From positions 1-23,252 of the IMG/VR virus record IMGVR_UViG_3300033233_000984: a stretch of 23,252 nucleotides of DNA; one strand, 5' to 3'. The DNA is from a virus. The notes beneath the pieces are model-generated. The model saw nothing but the letters and a program-made list of their open reading frames with translations, did no database searches and was not told the origin of the DNA. How positions within the stretch are numbered: position 1 is the stretch's first letter; every line of letters begins with the position of its first letter. Made by a program: the position numbers and the translations under genes. Of the stretch, positions 8,942-18,963 are shown one piece after another.

Positions 8942-9613
8942 TTATTTTTTTATAAATTTCGCCTCTTTTAATAAATCATCCAAACTCCTAATAAATCTAT
9001 CAATATTACTTATTTCAGGCCTTAGTAAGTTATTATATCGATAAATTTCTGTTTGATAATTTTTAAAATTCATAAATCGAGTTAAAAAATTTTGTTTTAG
9101 TGGTGGGAGACCCGCTTTAACTTTCATTAATTCAATTTTGCAATAATTAGCAGTACTATATAACTTTCTTAGGTCAATTGTTGAACCTTTAGGCAGTTTA
9201 AGAATTGATGTGATTTCTTTAGCGTATAAATCAGAAAGACCGTTTATTTTTGGTTTTAATAATCCAATATTTTTTTGTAACTCCATCATAGAGTTGAGGT
9301 TATACTTAAAATTTTTTTCTAATACAGGACCAATTTTAACTTTTTGAGGTATTTTAGAAAGTAATGACACTACATTAGACGGTAAACTCATCATCGGACT
9401 TGATGTTGGTGAATTCTTAGGGAATGTATTCTTATATGACATATTGTTCCGCGGGTTTAGACCAGTCTTACTTACTGATTTACCACCACGTTTAAAAAAA
9501 TTAAGTATGGCGTCAAATAGACCTTCATTTAATTGATTACTAGTTTGTTCTGAAATAACTCGTCTAACTATACGAGACAAATCGTTTTCCGTTAATTTTA
9601 TAATTCTTTTCAT
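8942..9613 (-). CDS. RLTE-tagged putative internal virion protein, 223 aa
   Basis: Body function unknown. Residues 1-23 are the tag MKRIIKLTENDLSRIVRRVI-SEQ with ISE/Q at 20-22. A second possible cut, LNE/G, lies at residues 28-31 in front of a hydrophobic helix (GLFDAILNFFKRG). Residues 50-80 are basic and serine/proline rich; the rest is helical with leucine-rich segments (LKPKINGLSDLYAKEITSIL, LLRPEISNIDRFIRSLDDLL). A double I/L-x-E arrangement is like T4 internal proteins processed by the prohead protease, but processing here is inference. It has its own promoter and terminator. Confidence 0.85.
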   Translation of the reverse strand: MKRIIKLTENDLSRIVRRVISEQTSNQLNEGLFDAILNFFKRGGKSVSKTGLNPRNNMSYKNTFPKNSPTSSPMMSLPSNVVSLLSKIPQKVKIGPVLEKNFKYNLNSMMELQKNIGLLKPKINGLSDLYAKEITSILKLPKGSTIDLRKLYSTANYCKIELMKVKAGLPPLKQNFLTRFMNFKNYQTEIYRYNNLLRPEISNIDRFIRSLDDLLKEAKFIKK

Positions 9614-9647: not shown

Positions 9648-10199
9648 TTACAATTCACTTCTTTCTCTATTACTCTCTCTTTTTGAATAAGAATAACAAG
9701 CCAATATTATACCAAGAACCATAACTAATAACGCCATACTTGCGTTACCTCGACCAAGACCCATGTATTGTTCATTTATTTCATTTATTTTGGTAAAGAA
9801 TTTGCTCTGGCTCCATCCTGACACTTCACCAGCAATACTGATTAATCCTGCGGCACTTGCCAATCCTCCGACATAAATTCCAAGATTTGAAACAAAATTT
9901 TTAACTTTAGATATCAGGTTCTCATTTAAATAAGACTCAGATATTGATTCTTCATCTTCTAATTTATTTATTATTTTTTCAATGTTTACGTTTTCCGCCT
10001 TTCTTAATATCTGTGATAATTCTTTATCTGTTAAATCACTAAAAACTTCGTTTTTAAAAAATTCTTTTGATGCGTTAACCGCACTTTTAAATTTAGAAAA
10101 AGTATTACCAAAAAAATCTTCATCCATTTCTTGTTCTCTAATAACTCGTTTAACTAATCTTGTTAAATCTCGTTCTGTTAATCTTATAATTCTTGCCAT
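9648..10199 (-). CDS. RLTE-tagged protein with two hydrophobic segments, 183 aa
   Basis: Function unknown. Tag at residues 1-23 (MARIIRLTERDLTRLVKRVI-REQ, IRE/Q at 20-22). Residues 24-100 are charged and helical with further I/L-x-E-like sites, including LNE/N before the first hydrophobic stretch. Residues about 104-127 (LGIYVGGLASAAGLISIAGE) and 153-173 (ASMALLVMVLGIILACYSYS) are likely membrane-crossing, with a basic tail after the second. A tagged membrane-active protein would suit a role in DNA entry or pore formation, but nothing proves it. The downstream 8942 gene follows after 34 bp and has its own promoter. Confidence 0.83.
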   Translation of the reverse strand: MARIIRLTERDLTRLVKRVIREQEMDEDFFGNTFSKFKSAVNASKEFFKNEVFSDLTDKELSQILRKAENVNIEKIINKLEDEESISESYLNENLISKVKNFVSNLGIYVGGLASAAGLISIAGEVSGWSQSKFFTKINEINEQYMGLGRGNASMALLVMVLGIILACYSYSKRESNRERSEL

Positions 10200-11434: not shown

Positions 11435-11464
11435 CATATATTAATTCCTAAATAATTATTATTT

Positions 11465-12190
11465 TCAACTACACGAAATTATCCTTTTACCCCAATTCAT
11501 TCTTCCACATGCGGCTTTACCGTAATATGGAAGAACTATTCTAAATTTACAAAATATCATTTTAAGTAAGGATAATCCAATTAATGTTACTAAAGCAATA
11601 CTAGCTATTGATAATACCAATGCCGGCATAGCAAATCCCCCAAAAAGAGTAATAACTACCATGCTAGTACCAAAAAATTCATTAATCATTCCTTCACTAA
11701 CTACTTCAGATGAAGTACCTCCTGACAACATTAGTTCATCTGCCTCAGATTTTTTAGATTTTATATCTTTAAATAATTGTTTTAGGTCCTCAATAGTTAA
11801 TTTATCCAAAAACACCATAAACTTATCTATATACTCTTTAATAAAGTTAATAACCTCACCAGCTTTTTTAGGGAACTTGTTATTAATTGACGACCCAAGT
11901 TTATCTCCAATATATTTATCAATATTACAAACTTCCAACATATTAGTTTTACCTGATAATTCCTTTGTTAAATTCTCAGTACTACTCAATCCATCATTTG
12001 TTATTCCAATTTCTGACATAATACTATCACCACCATCAGATTTAAGTTCATCAATCAATGTCCCAAATTTGTCATCGTAAATATCTAATTCTTTAATTAA
12101 ATGATTCTGCTCAGAAATAACAACACCTTTTTTATAATTTAAAAGATATTTCATTTTATTTAATTCCTCAATAATTATTATTTTTTCCAT
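11465..12190 (-). CDS. Tagged protein with C-terminal hydrophobic hairpin, 241 aa
   Basis: Function unknown. The first 28 residues combine two tag styles: MEKIIIIEELNKMK then YLLNYKKGVVISEQ, with ISE/Q at 25-27. Residues 30-170 are charged and helical, with acidic loops. Two further putative cut sites (VSE/G and INE/F) lie immediately before the hydrophobic region of about 40 residues (residues about 175-215: VVITLFGGFAMPALVLSIAS then IALVTLIGLSLLKMI). The basic, cysteine-containing tail (CKFRIVLPYYGKAACGRMNW) follows. The architecture parallels 9648-10199: tag, helical spacer, cut site, membrane hairpin. Confidence 0.83.
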   Translation of the reverse strand: MEKIIIIEELNKMKYLLNYKKGVVISEQNHLIKELDIYDDKFGTLIDELKSDGGDSIMSEIGITNDGLSSTENLTKELSGKTNMLEVCNIDKYIGDKLGSSINNKFPKKAGEVINFIKEYIDKFMVFLDKLTIEDLKQLFKDIKSKKSEADELMLSGGTSSEVVSEGMINEFFGTSMVVITLFGGFAMPALVLSIASIALVTLIGLSLLKMIFCKFRIVLPYYGKAACGRMNWGKRIISCS

Positions 12191-12207
12191 ATTATTTTAA
12201 TTTATTA

Positions 12208-12214
12208 ATAAATA
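12208..12214 (-). promoter_or_regulatory. Late-type -10 element TATTTAT, N17 before ATG
   Basis: TATTTATTAATAAATTAAAA on the minus strand, 17 nt before the start of the 11465-12190 gene. The same spacing and a similar AAATTAAAATA leader occur at 16976. Confidence 0.55.
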
Positions 12215-12230
12215 CTTCAATATTCAAAAA

Positions 12231-12253
12231 ACCCCACTCTTATTGGGAATGGG
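12231..12253 (-). terminator. Terminator after the 12280 gene
   Basis: CCCACTC (12233-12239) pairs with GAATGGG (12247-12253), with one G-U pair, followed on the minus strand by GTTTTTTG. Its core CACTCTTATTGGGAATGGG recurs in part at 13070, 16995, 19523 and 20120. Confidence 0.75.
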
Positions 12254-12279
12254 CCCATGTAAAATATATGTGTGGGGGG

Positions 12280-12795
12280 TTATGCTTTTACAGATTGACC
12301 TTGATTCTGCTCTTTACAACCGTCAATTGATATCCCTTTTTTAAAATTTTTAACCAATCCCCAAATTGTGTCCCATGTTATTGTGTGTTCACCACTTAAA
12401 TCTTGATATAATGTTTTACCAAATTTTTTATTATAGGCGTTTAATACGGAACCCATTTGTTGTTGAGTTTTTATTTCAGATAAAACTTTTGTTAAATCGT
12501 TAGATACTCCAACCCCTGTCATTGAATTGTGTAGTCGTAATATCCATGATTGAATTGTTTTATCTAATTGGTTTGGTTGACCAGATATCCCTCTTAATTT
12601 ACCAAATAATTCTAAAGACAATTCACCCGATGATTTATAAGTTTTACATCCTGTTTTAGGGACATTTCCTACCCCTGTATCAACACTATACCCTAATTCA
12701 GGCATGAGTTCTAAACCACCTAAAATTTGTTCCTTAATAACTCGTCTAACAAGTCTTGTTAAATCTGATTCCGTTAATTTTACGGTTCTTTTCAT
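12280..12795 (-). CDS. RLTE-tagged protein with annexin-like repeat, 171 aa
   Basis: Tag at residues 1-23 (MKRTVKLTESDLTRLVRRVI-KEQ, IKE/Q at 20-22). The C-terminal half contains IKTQQQMGSVLNAYNKKFGK followed by TLYQDLSGEHT, a pattern like annexin-type or related helical repeats (I.T..QM..V..AY...FG..L..DL..E). This resemblance is from memory and does not identify a function. Two cysteines (CKTY and DGCKEQ) may pair if the mature protein is exported. It is preceded by a small membrane protein gene with one nt between stop and start. Confidence 0.83.
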   Translation of the reverse strand: MKRTVKLTESDLTRLVRRVIKEQILGGLELMPELGYSVDTGVGNVPKTGCKTYKSSGELSLELFGKLRGISGQPNQLDKTIQSWILRLHNSMTGVGVSNDLTKVLSEIKTQQQMGSVLNAYNKKFGKTLYQDLSGEHTITWDTIWGLVKNFKKGISIDGCKEQNQGQSVKA

Positions 12796-13114: not shown

Positions 13115-13555
13115 TTATTTTTTGTATTGAGTAGTGCAACCAACAAACGACTCTCTTCCTTGTTTTTCGCCCAAAACACATTCATTACTAGGGTATTTAT
13201 CGTAATTAAAACTATTACCTTTACAAAATTGTGGTTTTAACATTTGAATTAACCCATCTGAATTTTGATATTTATTAATAACATCTAACTTAATTTCCTT
13301 GGCACGATATGGGTCACAAGAGAACACAATACCTGATTTTTCGTGAACCATATAATCAAATTCTGAGGCTCCAAGTCCCGATTGTTTCCATAAGTCACCA
13401 ACTGAAACTTTTATTGTTTTTCCACCATTAGATAATACGTGATTATTTTTTGTTGTATATTTAGCCATTAAAGACTCACCGTCGTAATTTTCATTAATTA
13501 CTCGTTTTACAATTCTAACCAAATCAGATTCGGTTAATCTAACTATTTTTTTCAT
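13115..13555 (-). CDS. RLTE-tagged hypothetical protein, 146 aa
   Basis: Tag at residues 1-23 (MKKIVRLTESDLVRIVKRVI-NEN, INE/N at 20-22). The body is basic, with beta-rich segments around VLSNGGKTIKVSVGDLWKQS and DYMVHEKSGIVFSCDPYRAK, and four cysteines (SCDP, FCKG, ECVL, GCTT) that could form two disulphides. Cysteine pairs in a late virion protein would suit action outside the cytoplasm. No family recognised. Single-gene transcription unit with a TATTTAT promoter and the 13002 terminator. Confidence 0.83.
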   Translation of the reverse strand: MKKIVRLTESDLVRIVKRVINENYDGESLMAKYTTKNNHVLSNGGKTIKVSVGDLWKQSGLGASEFDYMVHEKSGIVFSCDPYRAKEIKLDVINKYQNSDGLIQMLKPQFCKGNSFNYDKYPSNECVLGEKQGRESFVGCTTQYKK

Positions 13556-14259: not shown

Positions 14260-15141
14260 TTAAATTTTAACACAATTTAATGAATTCATAACTCTAATCA
14301 CTTCTTCTAAATAACCAATTGCTGTTTGTTTTCCAAATTTTTTATTTGGGAAGTAATTTTTAATTGGTTTATTTTGGTAAACTTTCAGAGTCCCGTATTT
14401 TTGATAAGCTGAAGAACCTTTTTTATATGGGTCATATGTTGGGTTTTTACAAGGACCGGCTAAAGTAGGGTTACTAGTGTAACAATACTTTTCAATTATG
14501 TTCATATTATGAGACACTATTGCCATATCAAGCGCCGCGTTATTAGTACTTCTAAAATTAACTCCTTTTTTAGTTAAAAAAGGATTTACAGACCTAGTGT
14601 CTTTACTATACCCTGACGATAACGCAACTCTATAATTAGTTAAAAGTAAAACTATAGTACCTAATCCTGCCCCTGTAATTTTTCTCATATCATCTCTAGT
14701 CATACCAAATTTTTTTTCCATATTTAGATTGTTCCAAGTTCCATGAGTAAATTGGGCCGGACCAACACTTGCTAACTTACCACTTCTTTTTAGACTACGA
14801 AATAAAAATGTATTATCAAATGAGTCAATTAATGCTTCAACAGTGGCACTAGTGCTTAAATTATAATCAGTTTCTCTTTTCATGATACCTATGGCAGCCT
14901 TTGTTAATTGTAATAATAATTCAGATGTGATATTTAATTTTTGGAGTATTTTAGCTCTGTTCTTTTGAACGTAAACTACAAATGGTACTAAATTTCTAGC
15001 ACCTAAACAAGGGAAACTGTTATCTTTTTGTGTAGTCGCCTGTTGAGGAGTACCAATAATTCCGGCAGCGCCCCCAAAACCTTGTTCTTGTATGACTTGG
15101 TTTAATTGAGTATATTGTTTTTCAGTTATTATAATTTTCAC
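14260..15141 (-). CDS. Tagged lytic-transglycosylase-like protein, 293 aa
   Basis: Probably cleaves peptidoglycan glycan strands. Residues 1-20 are the tag MKIIITEKQYTQLNQVIQEQ with IQE/Q at 17-19, followed by a glycine-rich spacer. Residues about 78-200 resemble the SLT-type lysozyme fold: IGIMKRETDYN with candidate catalytic glutamate 90, and ASVGPAQFTHGTW, which parallels the S-x-G-x-x-Q motif downstream of the glutamate in the family. The rest, with cysteine pairs (YCYT, GPCKNP), is unassigned. A packaged transglycosylase would act like T7 gp16 in opening the wall during DNA entry. Four nt downstream of the 15146 gene, in one operon. Confidence 0.72.
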   Translation of the reverse strand: MKIIITEKQYTQLNQVIQEQGFGGAAGIIGTPQQATTQKDNSFPCLGARNLVPFVVYVQKNRAKILQKLNITSELLLQLTKAAIGIMKRETDYNLSTSATVEALIDSFDNTFLFRSLKRSGKLASVGPAQFTHGTWNNLNMEKKFGMTRDDMRKITGAGLGTIVLLLTNYRVALSSGYSKDTRSVNPFLTKKGVNFRSTNNAALDMAIVSHNMNIIEKYCYTSNPTLAGPCKNPTYDPYKKGSSAYQKYGTLKVYQNKPIKNYFPNKKFGKQTAIGYLEEVIRVMNSLNCVKI

Positions 15142-15145
15142 AATA

Positions 15146-16369
15146 TTAGTTAATTTTTGGAGTTCCCGCCCAAATTATTGATAATGTATTTCTACTCATT
15201 TTAGATATTGGAAATGCGTAAACTGTTTGGTGAACATTATGTACCACATATCTTTCCCCTTTACTATCAATATACCCTATAAACCCAATATGAGTGTTAG
15301 GTATAAAAGATTTACCACTTTTTAAAGTTGAGTTTGGTACAAATTTTATATTTTTGTTCTCGTCATCTTGTTTCCATAAAGTATCCCCACATTTATCACT
15401 TTGTTTACAAAAATATGGTTGTTTTAATTTAACCCATTTTCCTTGATTATCTCTTGACATACCAACTGCCGATTGAAAAAATGCTAAATCAAAATTTGAT
15501 GAATCAGGATAATAAAGTCCAACAACCGCACCTAAAGGAAGACTATTAAATTGTTGTTGGTCACTTGGGACCAATGATGATATAATATTTTTTGATTTAT
15601 CATCGTTAACTGAACTATCGTTTAATGTTGGCATACCCGATTTATTAATACTATTAAACACATCTGTTATTTTTTTAACCAAATCAGGTGTAACATTAGC
15701 GTATTGGTTAAATTTACGATATGCTTGCCACGCATCACCAAAAGCGTTACCAATCATATCGTAGGTGAATTCCGCACAACCTACTTGAGTACATTTACGA
15801 ACATAATAACCTAAATTACTTTTGAATGATGATTTATCAATGTTAAATCCTGTTTTAACTAATGATGGTAATGTTTGTCCTGCCTCACTACTAGTTAATT
15901 TTGCTTGTTGATTTTGTTTAAAAAATAAATCACTTAATTTAATTTTACCATATTTTTTAGTTGTAATTATTTCATTAGAAGAATTTATAATGTTATCGTT
16001 ATTAAAACTTCCTCTAATAGATAAATCATTTTTTTTCGCAATATTTGGGTAATATTTAATTACATACTGTCTAAATAAATCACCTTGACCTTTATTTTCA
16101 AATGGTGATTTAACATTATTGGTTTTAACATTATTGGTTTTTATTGGTGTTTTAAAAATTTTTGTGGCAATTGCGTTAGCAACTTCACCAGAAGTGAGTA
16201 TCCATTCAGTTGTATTAGTTTTTCTGGCATAATACATATCATTCTTTTTAAGATAGTCCCATGAGGCTCCTTTAACAATATGTTCTTCTTCGTTTAATTT
16301 TTGTTCTAATAATACATTATTAATTAAACTTATTAATTCTGTCTCGGTTAATCTTACTGTTCTTCCCAT
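15146..16369 (-). CDS. RLTE-tagged NlpC/P60-CHAP-like hydrolase, 407 aa
   Basis: Probably a peptidoglycan peptidase or amidase. Tag at 1-23 (MGRTVRLTETELISLINNVL-LEQ, LLE/Q at 20-22; KLNE/E follows). Residues 88-127 contain GDLFRQYVIKYYPNIAKKND plus a GSFNNDN segment, a motif common in phage wall-associated proteins. Residues 190-225 have GCAEFTYDMIGNAFGDAW with candidate nucleophile C198, and residues 358-385 have NTHIGFIGY and YVVHNVHQTVYAF with candidate histidines 377 and 380, an order compatible with papain-like cysteine hydrolases. KTNN-VKTNNVK at 77-87 is a tandem repeat. The catalytic assignment is by eye. Confidence 0.68.
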   Translation of the reverse strand: MGRTVRLTETELISLINNVLLEQKLNEEEHIVKGASWDYLKKNDMYYARKTNTTEWILTSGEVANAIATKIFKTPIKTNNVKTNNVKSPFENKGQGDLFRQYVIKYYPNIAKKNDLSIRGSFNNDNIINSSNEIITTKKYGKIKLSDLFFKQNQQAKLTSSEAGQTLPSLVKTGFNIDKSSFKSNLGYYVRKCTQVGCAEFTYDMIGNAFGDAWQAYRKFNQYANVTPDLVKKITDVFNSINKSGMPTLNDSSVNDDKSKNIISSLVPSDQQQFNSLPLGAVVGLYYPDSSNFDLAFFQSAVGMSRDNQGKWVKLKQPYFCKQSDKCGDTLWKQDDENKNIKFVPNSTLKSGKSFIPNTHIGFIGYIDSKGERYVVHNVHQTVYAFPISKMSRNTLSIIWAGTPKIN

Positions 16370-16372
16370 AAT

Positions 16373-16720
16373 TTAATTTTCGTTATCCCCCCATACACTC
16401 TTACCACCGTCACCTGATTCATATCTCCAATTCTCCATAATATCATCAAGTTTTAAACATAGACTGTCATATATTGCTTCGGAGTCTGTACCCACTTCGG
16501 AGATTGCCTCTGATAGTTTACTATTAAACAATTTTTTATACACAGTTTTATTCGGATGAGGAAGCCCAAGGTCATTTTCATTAACCAATGGTTTTGCGTC
16601 ACCCAAAGTTGATTCTAAAAGAGATTTAAATCTTGATGTACCAATTTTTATCCCACCTGTATGTTGTTCACGGATATTATTTTTCTCCTCAGAACTCATA
16701 TTATTTAATAAATGTTTCAT
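16373..16720 (-). CDS. MKHLLNN-tagged protein, 115 aa
   Basis: Body function unknown. Residues 1-19 are the third tag type (MKHLLNNMSSEEKNNIREQ, IRE/Q at 16-18), followed by a stretch identical to the 17161-17571 gene but for one residue (48 of the first 49, including SRFKSLLESTLGD). The body from residue 50 is different: KKLFNSKLSEAISEVGTDSE and a helix ending WRYESGDGGKS. GTDSEAIYDSL is reminiscent of annexin-type repeats. Its DNA shares a 147-bp near-perfect repeat with the 17161 gene. Third-last gene of the 16958-14260 run. Confidence 0.82.
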   Translation of the reverse strand: MKHLLNNMSSEEKNNIREQHTGGIKIGTSRFKSLLESTLGDAKPLVNENDLGLPHPNKTVYKKLFNSKLSEAISEVGTDSEAIYDSLCLKLDDIMENWRYESGDGGKSVWGDNEN

Positions 16721-16724
16721 AATA
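16578..16724. repeat. 147-bp near-identical direct repeat, copy 1
   Basis: Matches 17429-17575 at 145 of 147 positions. It covers the first 48 codons of the 16373-16720 gene plus 4 nt upstream of the ATG. The offset is 851 bp. The boundary lies just after codon 48, where the two proteins diverge completely. Confidence 0.95.
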
Positions 16725-16745
16725 TTATTTGTTTTTTAATGGACA

Positions 16746-16958
16746 TCATTTTTTATTTTCCTCAATTAACTTTTTTACCAAAAACATTATATGGACCTTT
16801 ACATCATTGTCTATAACGCTTTCATCGACAAGTTCCTTTAAATAGGTTTTTAGATTTTTTAAATTATCAGAATCACCAACTTTTGTGGTTTGTTTATTAT
16901 CTTCTCTAATAACTCTTTTAACGATACGAGCTAAATCGTTTTCTGTTAATCTTCCCAT
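16746..16958 (-). CDS. RLTE-tagged mini-protein, 70 aa
   Basis: Consists almost only of a tag and one helix. The tag is three residues shorter than usual (MGRLTENDLARIVKRVIRED, IRE/D at 17-19). The remaining 50 residues form a charged helix with leucine/isoleucine positions (LKNLKTYLKELVDESVIDND, then VHIMFLVKKLIEENKK). It could be a minimal capsid-packaged protein like the small T4 internal proteins, or an assembly partner. It heads a four-gene run (16958-14260) from a TATTTAT promoter. Confidence 0.78.
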   Translation of the reverse strand: MGRLTENDLARIVKRVIREDNKQTTKVGDSDNLKNLKTYLKELVDESVIDNDVKVHIMFLVKKLIEENKK

Positions 16959-16975
16959 AATATTTTAATTTATTT

Positions 16976-16982
16976 ATAAATA
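16976..16982 (-). promoter_or_regulatory. Late-type -10 element TATTTAT, N17 before ATG
   Basis: TATTTATAAATAAATTAAAA on the minus strand, 17 nt before the start of the 16746-16958 gene. Likely promoter for the run of four tagged genes down to 14260. Confidence 0.55.
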
Positions 16983-17085
16983 TCATATAAAACAAAAAAC
17001 CCACACTCTTATTAGAAAACGGAGTTAAATTTAAAAAGAAGAATTAATTATTATTTTTATACAACAATAAATATATAAAACAAAA

Positions 17086-17110
17086 AACCCCACCTGATAA
17101 AGATGGGGTT
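17086..17110 (-). terminator. Terminator after the 17161 gene
   Basis: AACCCCACC (17086-17094) pairs with GATGGGGTT (17102-17110), nine bp with one wobble and a 7-nt loop. The minus strand continues GGGGTTTTTTG. Confidence 0.87.
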
Positions 17111-17160
17111 CTTATATTAATTCCTTTATTTTGTTTCTCTCATTTCATCAACGAACGATT

Positions 17161-17571
17161 TTAATCTAATCCTTTATATGTTTCAGGTTCAGGATACATT
17201 TCATCAGAAGAACTTGGTTTATTAGGTAAGTACTTTTGAACTATTTCCTCAGCTTTATCCTGAGTATCATATCCTGGTCCGTTATTGTTCCATTGTGCCC
17301 CTTGCATTAAAATTGGTGTTTTTTGTGTTGCATTTGTTTGATATATATAAAACTTACCAACTTTATTATAGATATAATATTGTATTGGGGGAAGACCAAT
17401 AGGTCCCGCAACTTTTGTTTCTGCCTGCTCATTAACCAATGGTTTTACATCACCCAAAGTTGATTCTAAAAGAGATTTAAATCTTGATGTACCAATTTTT
17501 ATCCCACCTGTATGTTGTTCACGGATATTATTTTTCTCCTCAGAACTCATATTATTTAATAAATGTTTCAT
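17161..17571 (-). CDS. MKHLLNN-tagged protein, 136 aa
   Basis: Residues 1-48 are the same as in the 16373-16720 product except A42 to V, including MKHLLNNMSSEEKNNIREQ and PLVNE. The body is unrelated: a small beta domain with IQYYIYNKVGKFYIYQTNAT and TPILMQGAQWNNNGPGYDTQ, then a helix (KAEEIVQKYL) and an acidic proline-rich tail. The body looks like a compact single domain on a re-used tag. It lies 14 nt downstream of the 17586 gene and ends at the 17086 terminator. Confidence 0.82.
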   Translation of the reverse strand: MKHLLNNMSSEEKNNIREQHTGGIKIGTSRFKSLLESTLGDVKPLVNEQAETKVAGPIGLPPIQYYIYNKVGKFYIYQTNATQKTPILMQGAQWNNNGPGYDTQDKAEEIVQKYLPNKPSSSDEMYPEPETYKGLD

Positions 17572-17575
17572 AATA
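17429..17575. repeat. 147-bp near-identical direct repeat, copy 2
   Basis: Second copy of 16578-16724; the two substitutions (at 17446 and 17448) change GCG to ACA on the plus strand and one of them gives the A42V difference. The copy ends just upstream of the start codon. Confidence 0.95.
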
Positions 17576-17585
17576 ATTACTTTTT

Positions 17586-18017
17586 TTATGCTAGGCTTGT
17601 ATCTACACCTGTATTTGTGCTAGCATAACCTTGTGATGCACCACACTTAGATTTAAGTGTAACCGCTCTTTTATTTGAGATGTACCAGTTTTTGTTAGTA
17701 CCATCCTGTAGTTTAATGGTATTATTAGTGGAACAATAAAAGGTACCATCCATAATCTGGTTTCGACCTGCAATTTTATATTCAAAATTAACATTCGCAC
17801 TAATTAGTTTTATTGTTTGAGGTAAAATATCAATATTAGTTAGTGAGTTAGTGGCGGATGGGTCCCTGAATACCATGGTTTTTAAAGGTGGTGGTGTTTT
17901 CACTGGATTGTTACCAACAGCCTTTCCCACTGCTTTTACAGTACCTCTTTGTTCCGTAATAACTCGTCTAACAATACGAGCCAAATCGTTTTCTGTTAAT
18001 CTTGTAATTCTTGCCAT
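17586..18017 (-). CDS. RLTE-tagged hypothetical protein, 143 aa
   Basis: Tag at residues 1-23 (MARITRLTENDLARIVRRVI-TEQ, ITE/Q at 20-22), then a glycine/valine/proline linker (RGTVKAVGKAVGNNPVKTPP). The body from about residue 45 is a beta-rich domain (NIDILPQTIKLISANVNFEY, IMDGTFYCSTNNTIKL, NWYISNKRAVTLKSKCG) with two cysteines that could pair. No family recognised. First gene of a two-gene unit with 17161-17571. Confidence 0.83.
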   Translation of the reverse strand: MARITRLTENDLARIVRRVITEQRGTVKAVGKAVGNNPVKTPPPLKTMVFRDPSATNSLTNIDILPQTIKLISANVNFEYKIAGRNQIMDGTFYCSTNNTIKLQDGTNKNWYISNKRAVTLKSKCGASQGYASTNTGVDTSLA

Positions 18018-18035
18018 AATATTATTTGTTTATTA

Positions 18036-18042
18036 GTAAATA
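18036..18042 (-). promoter_or_regulatory. Late-type -10 element TATTTAC, N18 before ATG
   Basis: CTATTTACTAATAAACAAAT on the minus strand, 18 nt before the start of the 17586-18017 gene. One mismatch to TATTTAT. Confidence 0.45.
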
Positions 18043-18049
18043 GTATGAT

Positions 18050-18078
18050 AATCAAAAAAAAAACCACTTTTTAGAAAT
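18050..18078 (-). terminator. Weak terminator after the lysozyme gene
   Basis: On the minus strand AAACTT and AAGTGGTTT can form a bulged stem, directly followed by a run of ten T. The stem is imperfect, so activity is uncertain. Confidence 0.4.
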
Positions 18079-18087
18079 AAGTTTAAA

Positions 18088-18963
18088 TTATTTTATTTTT
18101 AATCTTTGTCCCGGTTTAATATTATCTGACGTTAAATTATTTAACTTTCTTAAATTATCAACAGTAACAGATTTACCATATTTTGATGCAATTCCCGAAA
18201 GAGTATCACCTGATTTTACGGTATAAAACATTTCAGGAAAATCATAACCATAATCCATATTGTAATTACTTTTAAAGTACTTATCACATTCAGGTCTATA
18301 GACCAACTCCTTTGGTAACATTTTCAAACACCTTTGTTTTTCGGTTTCTGTTTTGGAATTTTTAACAACTGGTTTTTTTGTTTTTAATTCATTACCATAC
18401 TTGATAAATGATTCTTGATTTTTTACCATTCTATCCGCAACCCCACCTTGATATCTAGGGTCTTTTGCTTGAGAAAAATTAATATTCCACCCTTCCACAT
18501 ATTTTTTAGCCGCTAAACTCCAATTACCTGAATTTATTGCCCTTACCCATTCATGAGATGTTTTTGCCTCCCCCCTAAACACGGTATTAACTAATACCCT
18601 TTGTATATATAATGGGTACTTATCATATTTTGGAAATAATACTTTTTTTGCAATATTTTCTTTTTCTATAATATCTTTTGTTAATAACTCTTCAGCCTTT
18701 GAATTTAATATCTTATTTCCTATTGTCGCTTCTTTACCTGTATGTCCCCACCCAATTGTTAATGTTCCACCCTTTTTTAGTTTATTATTTGAAACAAAAG
18801 TTTTTGGGGTTTTTGAATCCTTATCATCAAATACATAATGGTTACCTTTTGAATCAACAACAGTGGATTCATAATTTTTTATAATGTCTCTTAATTCCGA
18901 ATCATCAGCAATTGATTCCGTTAATAAACTTTTAAATTGGTTTTCAGTTATTATTATTTTCAT
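18088..18963 (-). CDS. Tagged T4-type lysozyme with C-terminal LysM
   Basis: Peptidoglycan muramidase by similarity. Residues 1-20 are MKIIITENQFKSLLTESIAD, a tag with LTE/S at 14-16. Residues 25-195 match the GH24 (T4 lysozyme) pattern: candidate catalytic E32 in NYEST, the hallmark TLTIGWGHTG (T69), a helix NSKAEELLTKDI, then QRVLVNTVFRGEAK and SGNWSLAAKKYVEGWN with a final ADRMVKNQESF. An insertion of about 25 residues separates E32 from TIGWGH compared with T4 lysozyme. Residues 247-291 are a LysM domain (YTVKSGDTLSGIASKYGKSV, then NIKPGQRLKI). The tag would suit a virion-carried enzyme; alternatively it is the endolysin. Confidence 0.9.
   Translation of the reverse strand: MKIIITENQFKSLLTESIADDSELRDIIKNYESTVVDSKGNHYVFDDKDSKTPKTFVSNNKLKKGGTLTIGWGHTGKEATIGNKILNSKAEELLTKDIIEKENIAKKVLFPKYDKYPLYIQRVLVNTVFRGEAKTSHEWVRAINSGNWSLAAKKYVEGWNINFSQAKDPRYQGGVADRMVKNQESFIKYGNELKTKKPVVKNSKTETEKQRCLKMLPKELVYRPECDKYFKSNYNMDYGYDFPEMFYTVKSGDTLSGIASKYGKSVTVDNLRKLNNLTSDNIKPGQRLKIK

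Follow-up and report, generated by a model that had tools for sequence, protein, structure and literature searches.

A 23,252-nucleotide (nt) stretch of viral DNA (IMG/VR record IMGVR_UViG_3300033233_000984, positions 1 to 23,252; hereafter the window) contains two neighbouring genes whose proteins share their first 48 residues and are unrelated thereafter. The genes for the 115-residue (aa) and the 136-aa protein were named W1 and W2, respectively, and the shared N-terminus tag-2. Relatives of tag-2, and of a second N-terminal family (tag-1) also present in the window, precede many dissimilar proteins in other phages. Both families end at a hydrophobic-x-Glu motif, and they are quite probably capsid-targeting propeptides in the sense of the capsid targeting sequence (CTS) of phage T4, which would lead the attached body to the capsid and then be cleaved off.

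Two neighbouring genes share a nearly identical N-terminus

Direct comparison of 16578-16724 with 17429-17575 (both on the minus strand) gave 145 identical positions out of 147, as claimed in a preliminary description of the window, and a chance origin is excluded for a match of this length. The only mismatches, at 16596 and 16598 in the coordinates of copy 1, affect codon 42 (GCA/GTA, resulting in A42V) and codon 41 (GAC/GAT, synonymous). The segment had been described as coding for the first 48 residues of both proteins; these residues are indeed the same apart from A42V, but the repeat itself consists of 4 nt 5′ of the ATG and 143 coding nt; these span codons 1-47 and two positions of codon 48, which reads GAA/GAG in the two genes and specifies Glu in both. 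Counted from the ATG, W1 and W2 differ at 5 of their first 147 coding nt. Identity ends on either side of the repeat: 14 of 25 nt differ upstream, and from codon 49 onward the bodies are unrelated, in agreement with the earlier claim. Structure prediction for tag-2 yielded two short helices (residues 10-21 and 29-36) and was unreliable (mean predicted local distance difference test score, pLDDT, 66; predicted template modelling score, pTM, 0.29), and that of the 136-aa protein was unusable (mean pLDDT 46).

Tag-1 and tag-2 precede many unrelated bodies

A profile search of IMG/VR detected 127 places encoding tag-2 relatives; the tag-2 counts given here rest on the best 80 of these 127. They comprised 59 distinct N-termini, 47 of which were followed by bodies of useful length that fell into 36 clusters (BLAST, E 1e-3). 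Column conservation was high through Glu48 and had reached background by residue 50. For tag-1, 95 distinct versions were obtained; 96 of 102 hits in the loci examined were N-terminal, and 89 N-terminal bodies formed 69 clusters, with 7-15 tag-1 copies in each large (~290-320-kb) record. The proposal that the tag is a portable unit is thus supported by the 36 body clusters, and also by G004, a sibling record with a 98.8% identical flank that is without the second tagged gene.

Most tagged bodies had no Pfam family match, and recognisable domains (M23 peptidase, SLT, peptidoglycan-binding and annexin-like) were found in few of them. Annexin-like repeats (E ~1e-5; the window protein at 12280-12795 is below the Pfam cut-off) recurred behind different tags, including the tag-2 bodies of L064 and L063. 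Tag-like segments were also seen inside or at the C-terminus of two proteins encoded near the capsid gene (L018:3812-4369 in G003, 185 aa, and L032:11337-12032 in G005, 231 aa; NEGMRQFIKSILNEQ, NEGLRDLILKVLKES); T4 Alt is likewise processed C-terminally, according to passages in PMC9026906.

Tag-2 was confirmed in none of 84,980 species genomes of bacteria and archaea, and tblastn against named phages gave no match with the 136-aa protein, nor with a 23-aa tag-1 consensus, a query too short to be informative. Tag-1 was not found in four phage records related by capsid, of which three come from isolates (Flavobacterium phage immuto, Microcystis phage Mel-JY01, Rhodothermus phage RM378 and uncultured phage LR756508), and no cultured member of the tag-bearing phages was found.

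Tags have been exchanged near their ends

When the body of W1 alone was used as query, matches with 93% amino-acid (92% nt) identity were obtained in L054-L056, where this type of body is preceded by tag-1 (MGRIVRLTERDLTRLVRRIIREG) and an acidic domain, not by tag-2. Homology of W1 to L054 begins at codons 46-47, similarity further left being at background level; the junction reads ATTATTGAAAATGAC in L054, GTTATTGAAAATGAC in G004 and GTTAATGAAAATGAC in W1. Codon 47 specifies Ile in G004 as in L054, and Asn in W1 as in W2, suggesting that the W1 copy of the window may have been slightly converted after the join. The W2 gene is likewise a recombinant, with a breakpoint at codon 39/40, within the tag, since its nt identity to the G003 gene jumps at this point (75% in codons 1-20, 51% in codons 21-39, 97% in codons 40-49 and 87-88% beyond). 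In the same 175-aa gene of L054 and L056 the upstream 30 nt are identical, the tag-1 segments share 79% and the bodies 99%, and the divergence ends where tag-1 ends, which marks an exchange of this second tag family on an otherwise identical gene. L147 carries the acidic domain of L054/L056 behind a third tag type (MKIIITEQQSKQLKRILSEE), without the W1 body. Together, the comparisons of W1, W2, L054/L056 and L147 show recombination among three tag types and no fewer than three bodies.

Codons 1-39 are identical in the tags of W1 and W2, and among the loci examined they share at most 80% with any tag-2 outside this lineage. Because a relative of the W1 body carries another tag and the W2 body was seen with tag-2 only, the W1 body was probably the recipient. 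The domain swap of the preliminary description is upheld, since the W1 body stands elsewhere behind another N-terminus; the accompanying "duplication" could equally be gene conversion. Related genomes do carry the same tag on other bodies, and the joins lie at codons 46-47 and 39/40. A general tendency of tags to diverge faster than bodies was considered and rejected: it was clear in only 1 of 11 close tag-1 pairs, and wholesale shuffling of tags among close siblings is for this reason not claimed.

The repeat might also stem from plain gene duplication with replacement of the body, or from gene conversion homogenising two old tag-2 genes, the role of the tag being incidental. W1 and W2 are tandem neighbours, W2 could have been the source, by conversion, of the codon-47 difference between the window and G004 and L054, and the pattern in L054 and L056 resembles conversion of the tag alone. 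Such events, however, account for the origin of the copy and not for conservation of the tag across 36 body clusters, and the presence of the W1 body (body B) behind another N-terminus is a real join, more than homogenisation. This explanation is considered rather unlikely.

Tag ends resemble cleavage sites of a prohead protease

Tag-2 ended in [ILV]-x-E in 57 of 59 proteins, with Val in 34, Leu in 15 and Ile in 8 at P3, the third residue before the putative cut. Permutation of residues 40-60 (2000 permutations) produced [ILVM]xE at this place in a mean of 7.0 and a maximum of 16 proteins, compared with 57 of 59 observed. In nine tag-2 proteins the Glu was shifted by one residue (48 vs 47), and the hydrophobic-x-Glu was shifted along with it. 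Tag-1 ended in [ILV]-x-E in 90 of 95 versions and in strict L/I-x-E in 81 of 95. At residue 18 of tag-2 the strict motif occurred as I-x-E in 50 of 59 proteins, and 54 of 59 had strict [IL]xE at Glu18 or at the end. T4 gp21 cleaves after L/I-x-E, as stated in passages of PMC9026906.

The gp21-type (S77) prohead protease, PF03420, was present in the related records G002, G003 and G005 and, among 17 further tag-2 records, in 12, which included all 9 of at least 280 kb. Over both sets, 11 of 11 tested tag-bearing records of at least 230 kb had it. G002, G003 and G005 also encode a gp23-type major capsid protein (PF07068). The capsid proteins of G003 and G005 read HLINE↓ASST and YLINE↓ASST (↓, predicted or possible cut) at residue 60, in the N-terminal region, where cleavage is predicted; this region is the part removed in T4. 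In Flavobacterium phage vB_FspM_immuto_2-6A, the closest annotated isolate by capsid protein, this region contains QIVSE↓A, which makes Val at P3 plausible in this phage group.

The tags are probably capsid-targeting propeptides

Targeting to the capsid followed by cleavage is rated as quite likely, because the tags match the logic of the T4 CTS. By attaching to the scaffold core of the assembling prohead, the tag would draw the joined body inside, where a gp21-type protease would cut after Glu48 (V-N-E↓N or V-N-E↓Q) and perhaps after Glu18 too. The freed mature body would remain with the DNA and probably be ejected into the next host. Since the cut parts the tag from the body, new cargo could be labelled by recombination at, or just before, the cut site; in W1, the tag of the neighbouring W2 (or of an ancestor) would have been joined at codons 46-47 to a body that carries a different tag in other phages. 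From sequence we infer the direction of the swap, packaging, core binding, cleavage, retention in the head, ejection and the function of the bodies. More tentatively, loading of cargo might be modular, several unrelated prohead-address tags per genome being swappable near the cleavage site and the injected arsenal evolving as tags are captured; each tag may have its own core partner or location in the head.

Several observations weigh against capsid targeting with cleavage. The strict motif [IL]xE was found at only 25 of 59 tag-2 ends, and Val, a residue outside the L/I-x-E rule of T4, occupies P3 of Glu48 in 34 of 57 tag-2 proteins. The residue after the cut (P1′) is mostly Gln in the tags and Ala in the capsid protein, and [ILV]xE is a short motif, occurring in 8% of 5-position windows of the bodies. 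PF03420 was not found in the window, which is a 23-kb fragment, and its co-occurrence with the tags is necessary but not decisive, since any phage with a T4-type head is expected to have such a protease. Among the bodies are peptidoglycan hydrolases, enzymes that could work from the tail or during lysis. Twelve distinct tag-2 open reading frames (ORFs) comprise the tag only (52-62 aa) and fit poorly with a pure cargo label; they could represent a small core protein ancestral to the cargo tag, or decayed cargo genes. These tag-only ORFs are located in L061, L068-L070, L084, L085, L092, L097-L099, L123 and L126.

The existence of tag-only ORFs would also suit an uncut docking or localisation peptide for some other intracellular process (membrane, replication compartment or shared partner), with the end Glu forming part of a binding surface, as would the conservation of all 48 residues, beyond the end alone, and the few tag-1 copies at C-terminal or internal positions. 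Conservation, however, stops right after [ILV]xE, and the site holds its register on the one-residue slip. The same end motif closes two unrelated tag families, and the relatives encode a suitable protease and a capsid protein with a site of this kind. A docking peptide is accordingly held to be improbable, and capsid targeting with cleavage is preferred.

An assembly artefact, i.e. a chimeric contig joined at the repeat, such as misassembly can create from short near-identical repeats, is refuted and was given next to no credence, because contig L001 (IMG/VR 3300032018_000195) shares 15.4 kb with the window at 99.95% identity and has both copies, and each junction type recurs in other metagenomes: the W1-type tag and body in the sibling G004/L058 (3300042569; tag 99.3%, body 99.5%) and the W2-type in G002 and G003.

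Tagged-gene array of the window

By blastn, G004 was 98.8% identical to the window over a 4.3-kb flank and showed a presence/absence polymorphism, the segment with the 136-aa and 143-aa tagged genes being absent. G004 was also without the tagged gene at 8942-9613, and other tagged genes replaced 11448-12784; the tagged-gene array is a region that is polymorphic gene by gene.

Table 1. Repeat copies, predicted cleavage sites and tagged genes of the window (CDS, coding sequence; ↓, predicted or possible cut)
Feature	Position	Strand	Remark
Repeat copy 1, tag-2 coding segment (47 codons + 2 nt) with 4 nt upstream	16578..16724	-	145/147 vs copy 2
Repeat copy 2, tag-2 coding segment	17429..17575	-	145/147 vs copy 1
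W1 CDS, 115 aa, tag-2 + body B (NDLGLPHPNK...)	16373..16720	-	Body behind different N-terminus in L054-L056
W2 CDS, 136 aa, tag-2 + body (AETKVAGP...)	17161..17571	-	Same body in G002/G003
W1 Glu48 codon, predicted cleavage V-N-E↓N	16577..16579	-	[ILV]xE conserved in 57/59 tag-2 proteins
W2 Glu48 codon, predicted cleavage V-N-E↓Q	17428..17430	-	[ILV]xE conserved in 57/59 tag-2 proteins
W1 Glu18 codon, possible second site I-R-E↓Q	16667..16669	-	I-x-E at residue 18 in 50/59 tag-2 proteins
W2 Glu18 codon, possible second site I-R-E↓Q	17518..17520	-	I-x-E at residue 18 in 50/59 tag-2 proteins
Segment absent from G004 (136-aa and 143-aa tagged genes)	17058..18086	-	Junction, blastn vs G004
143-aa CDS, tag-1 (MARITRLTENDLARIVRRVITE↓Q)	17586..18017	-	
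70-aa CDS, tag-1 (MGRLTENDLARIVKRVIRE↓D)	16746..16958	-	
407-aa CDS, tag-1 (..NNVLLE↓Q)	15146..16369	-	
146-aa CDS, tag-1 (..RVINE↓N)	13115..13555	-	
171-aa CDS, tag-1 (..RVIKE↓Q), weak annexin match	12280..12795	-	Other tagged genes instead in G004
183-aa CDS, tag-1 (..RVIRE↓Q)	9648..10199	-	
223-aa CDS, tag-1 (..RVISE↓Q)	8942..9613	-	Absent from G004
293-aa CDS, third tag type (MKIIITEKQ...VIQE↓Q)	14260..15141	-	Tag assigned by eye
291-aa CDS, lysozyme + LysM, third tag type (MKIIITENQFKSLLTE↓S)	18088..18963	-	Tag assigned by eye

The third N-terminal type (MKIIITE.Q or similar) was seen on the lysozyme and LysM protein (18088-18963), on an SLT-like protein and on many small proteins, including those of most 100-130-aa ORFs between 3340 and 8895. 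It may comprise more than one kind of tag, because only some of these proteins have [ILV]xE within 25 residues. Further tag-like N-termini were observed in G003, namely MKKFIITEEEKNRILGMH...LNEQ on both sides of the W2 homologue (173390-175477, L021) and MNLQENI.RIKEMMG at 183028-184499 (L022).

The element TATTTAT-N0-5-TAAA, which may be a shared promoter, was found ~25 nt before the start of 22 of 50 tagged genes, 6 of 55 head/tail-region genes and 38 of 868 other genes in the window and G003-G009, the last group including spurious ORFs; TATTTAT was also present at about -15 in many other genes. The T4-type late promoter TATAAATA showed no enrichment over shuffles upstream of the tagged genes.

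Comparison with known systems

The preliminary description named no function for the portable unit; prohead targeting with cleavage at [ILV]-x-E is a likely one. That a single address label can serve many bodies is already known from T4, and Repoila et al., as cited in PMC3012670 and PMC12373910, reportedly extended this to T-even relatives in 1994. What appears to be new are these two tag families, their scale, and the junctions at or near the predicted cut site; no record of them was found, and the literature searches returned no paper on these tags, subscription literature being mostly beyond their reach. If capsid targeting holds, the tags would be a searchable address label marking dozens of uncharacterised phage proteins as head cargo, many of them probably injected in order to disable or commandeer the host, and the swaps would illustrate how an arsenal grows, the label being moved onto a new body at its own cut point. 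Because all three internal proteins of T4 inhibit type IV restriction enzymes (PMC12373910), the more than 100 tagged bodies would form a catalogue of candidate anti-defence proteins.

In the giant phages phiKZ, 201phi2-1 and SPN3US, whose head and ejection proteins bear propeptides, a gp21-like protease likewise cleaves many different head proteins after Glu, with several sites possible per propeptide, as outlined in passages of PMC9026906. Unlike the S/A-x-E motif given there for phiKZ, the motif found here is I/L/V-x-E and occurs together with a T4-type capsid protein, and those passages describe no portable shared tag sequence for the three phages. The phage vB_FspM_immuto_2-6A (Immutovirus) resembles the tag-bearing phages in its gp23-type capsid protein (41.8% identity over 57% of the query), with a possible site at QIVSE↓A, and in an annotated prohead core protease, but a tag-1 match is absent from its genome.

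The T4 internal proteins have only an N-terminal CTS in common, which binds the scaffold core and is removed by gp21 (passages in PMC9026906 and PMC3012670), and fusion to the CTS brings foreign proteins into the T4 head and on into the host (passages in PMC9026906, PMC3012670 and PMC12373910). The CTS comprises 10-19 residues, whereas tag-2 has 48, in which two or three sites are possible and P3 is frequently Val; resemblance in sequence was not apparent by eye, the segments being too short for a reliable homology test. T4 has three ip genes, in contrast to 7-15 tag-1 genes per ~290-320-kb record, and at least two tag families occur per genome here. The tags are described as functioning like the T4 CTS and are not classed as proven CTS, because strict L/I-x-E was present at only 25 of 59 tag-2 ends, no similarity to the T4 CTS was obvious, and location in the virion and cleavage are predictions. 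As in IPI, IPII and IPIII of T4, a short N-terminal segment is common to proteins with unrelated bodies and ends at a hydrophobic-x-Glu site, it occurs in phages with a gp21-type protease and a gp23-type capsid protein, and the putative cargo genes behind it are hypervariable.
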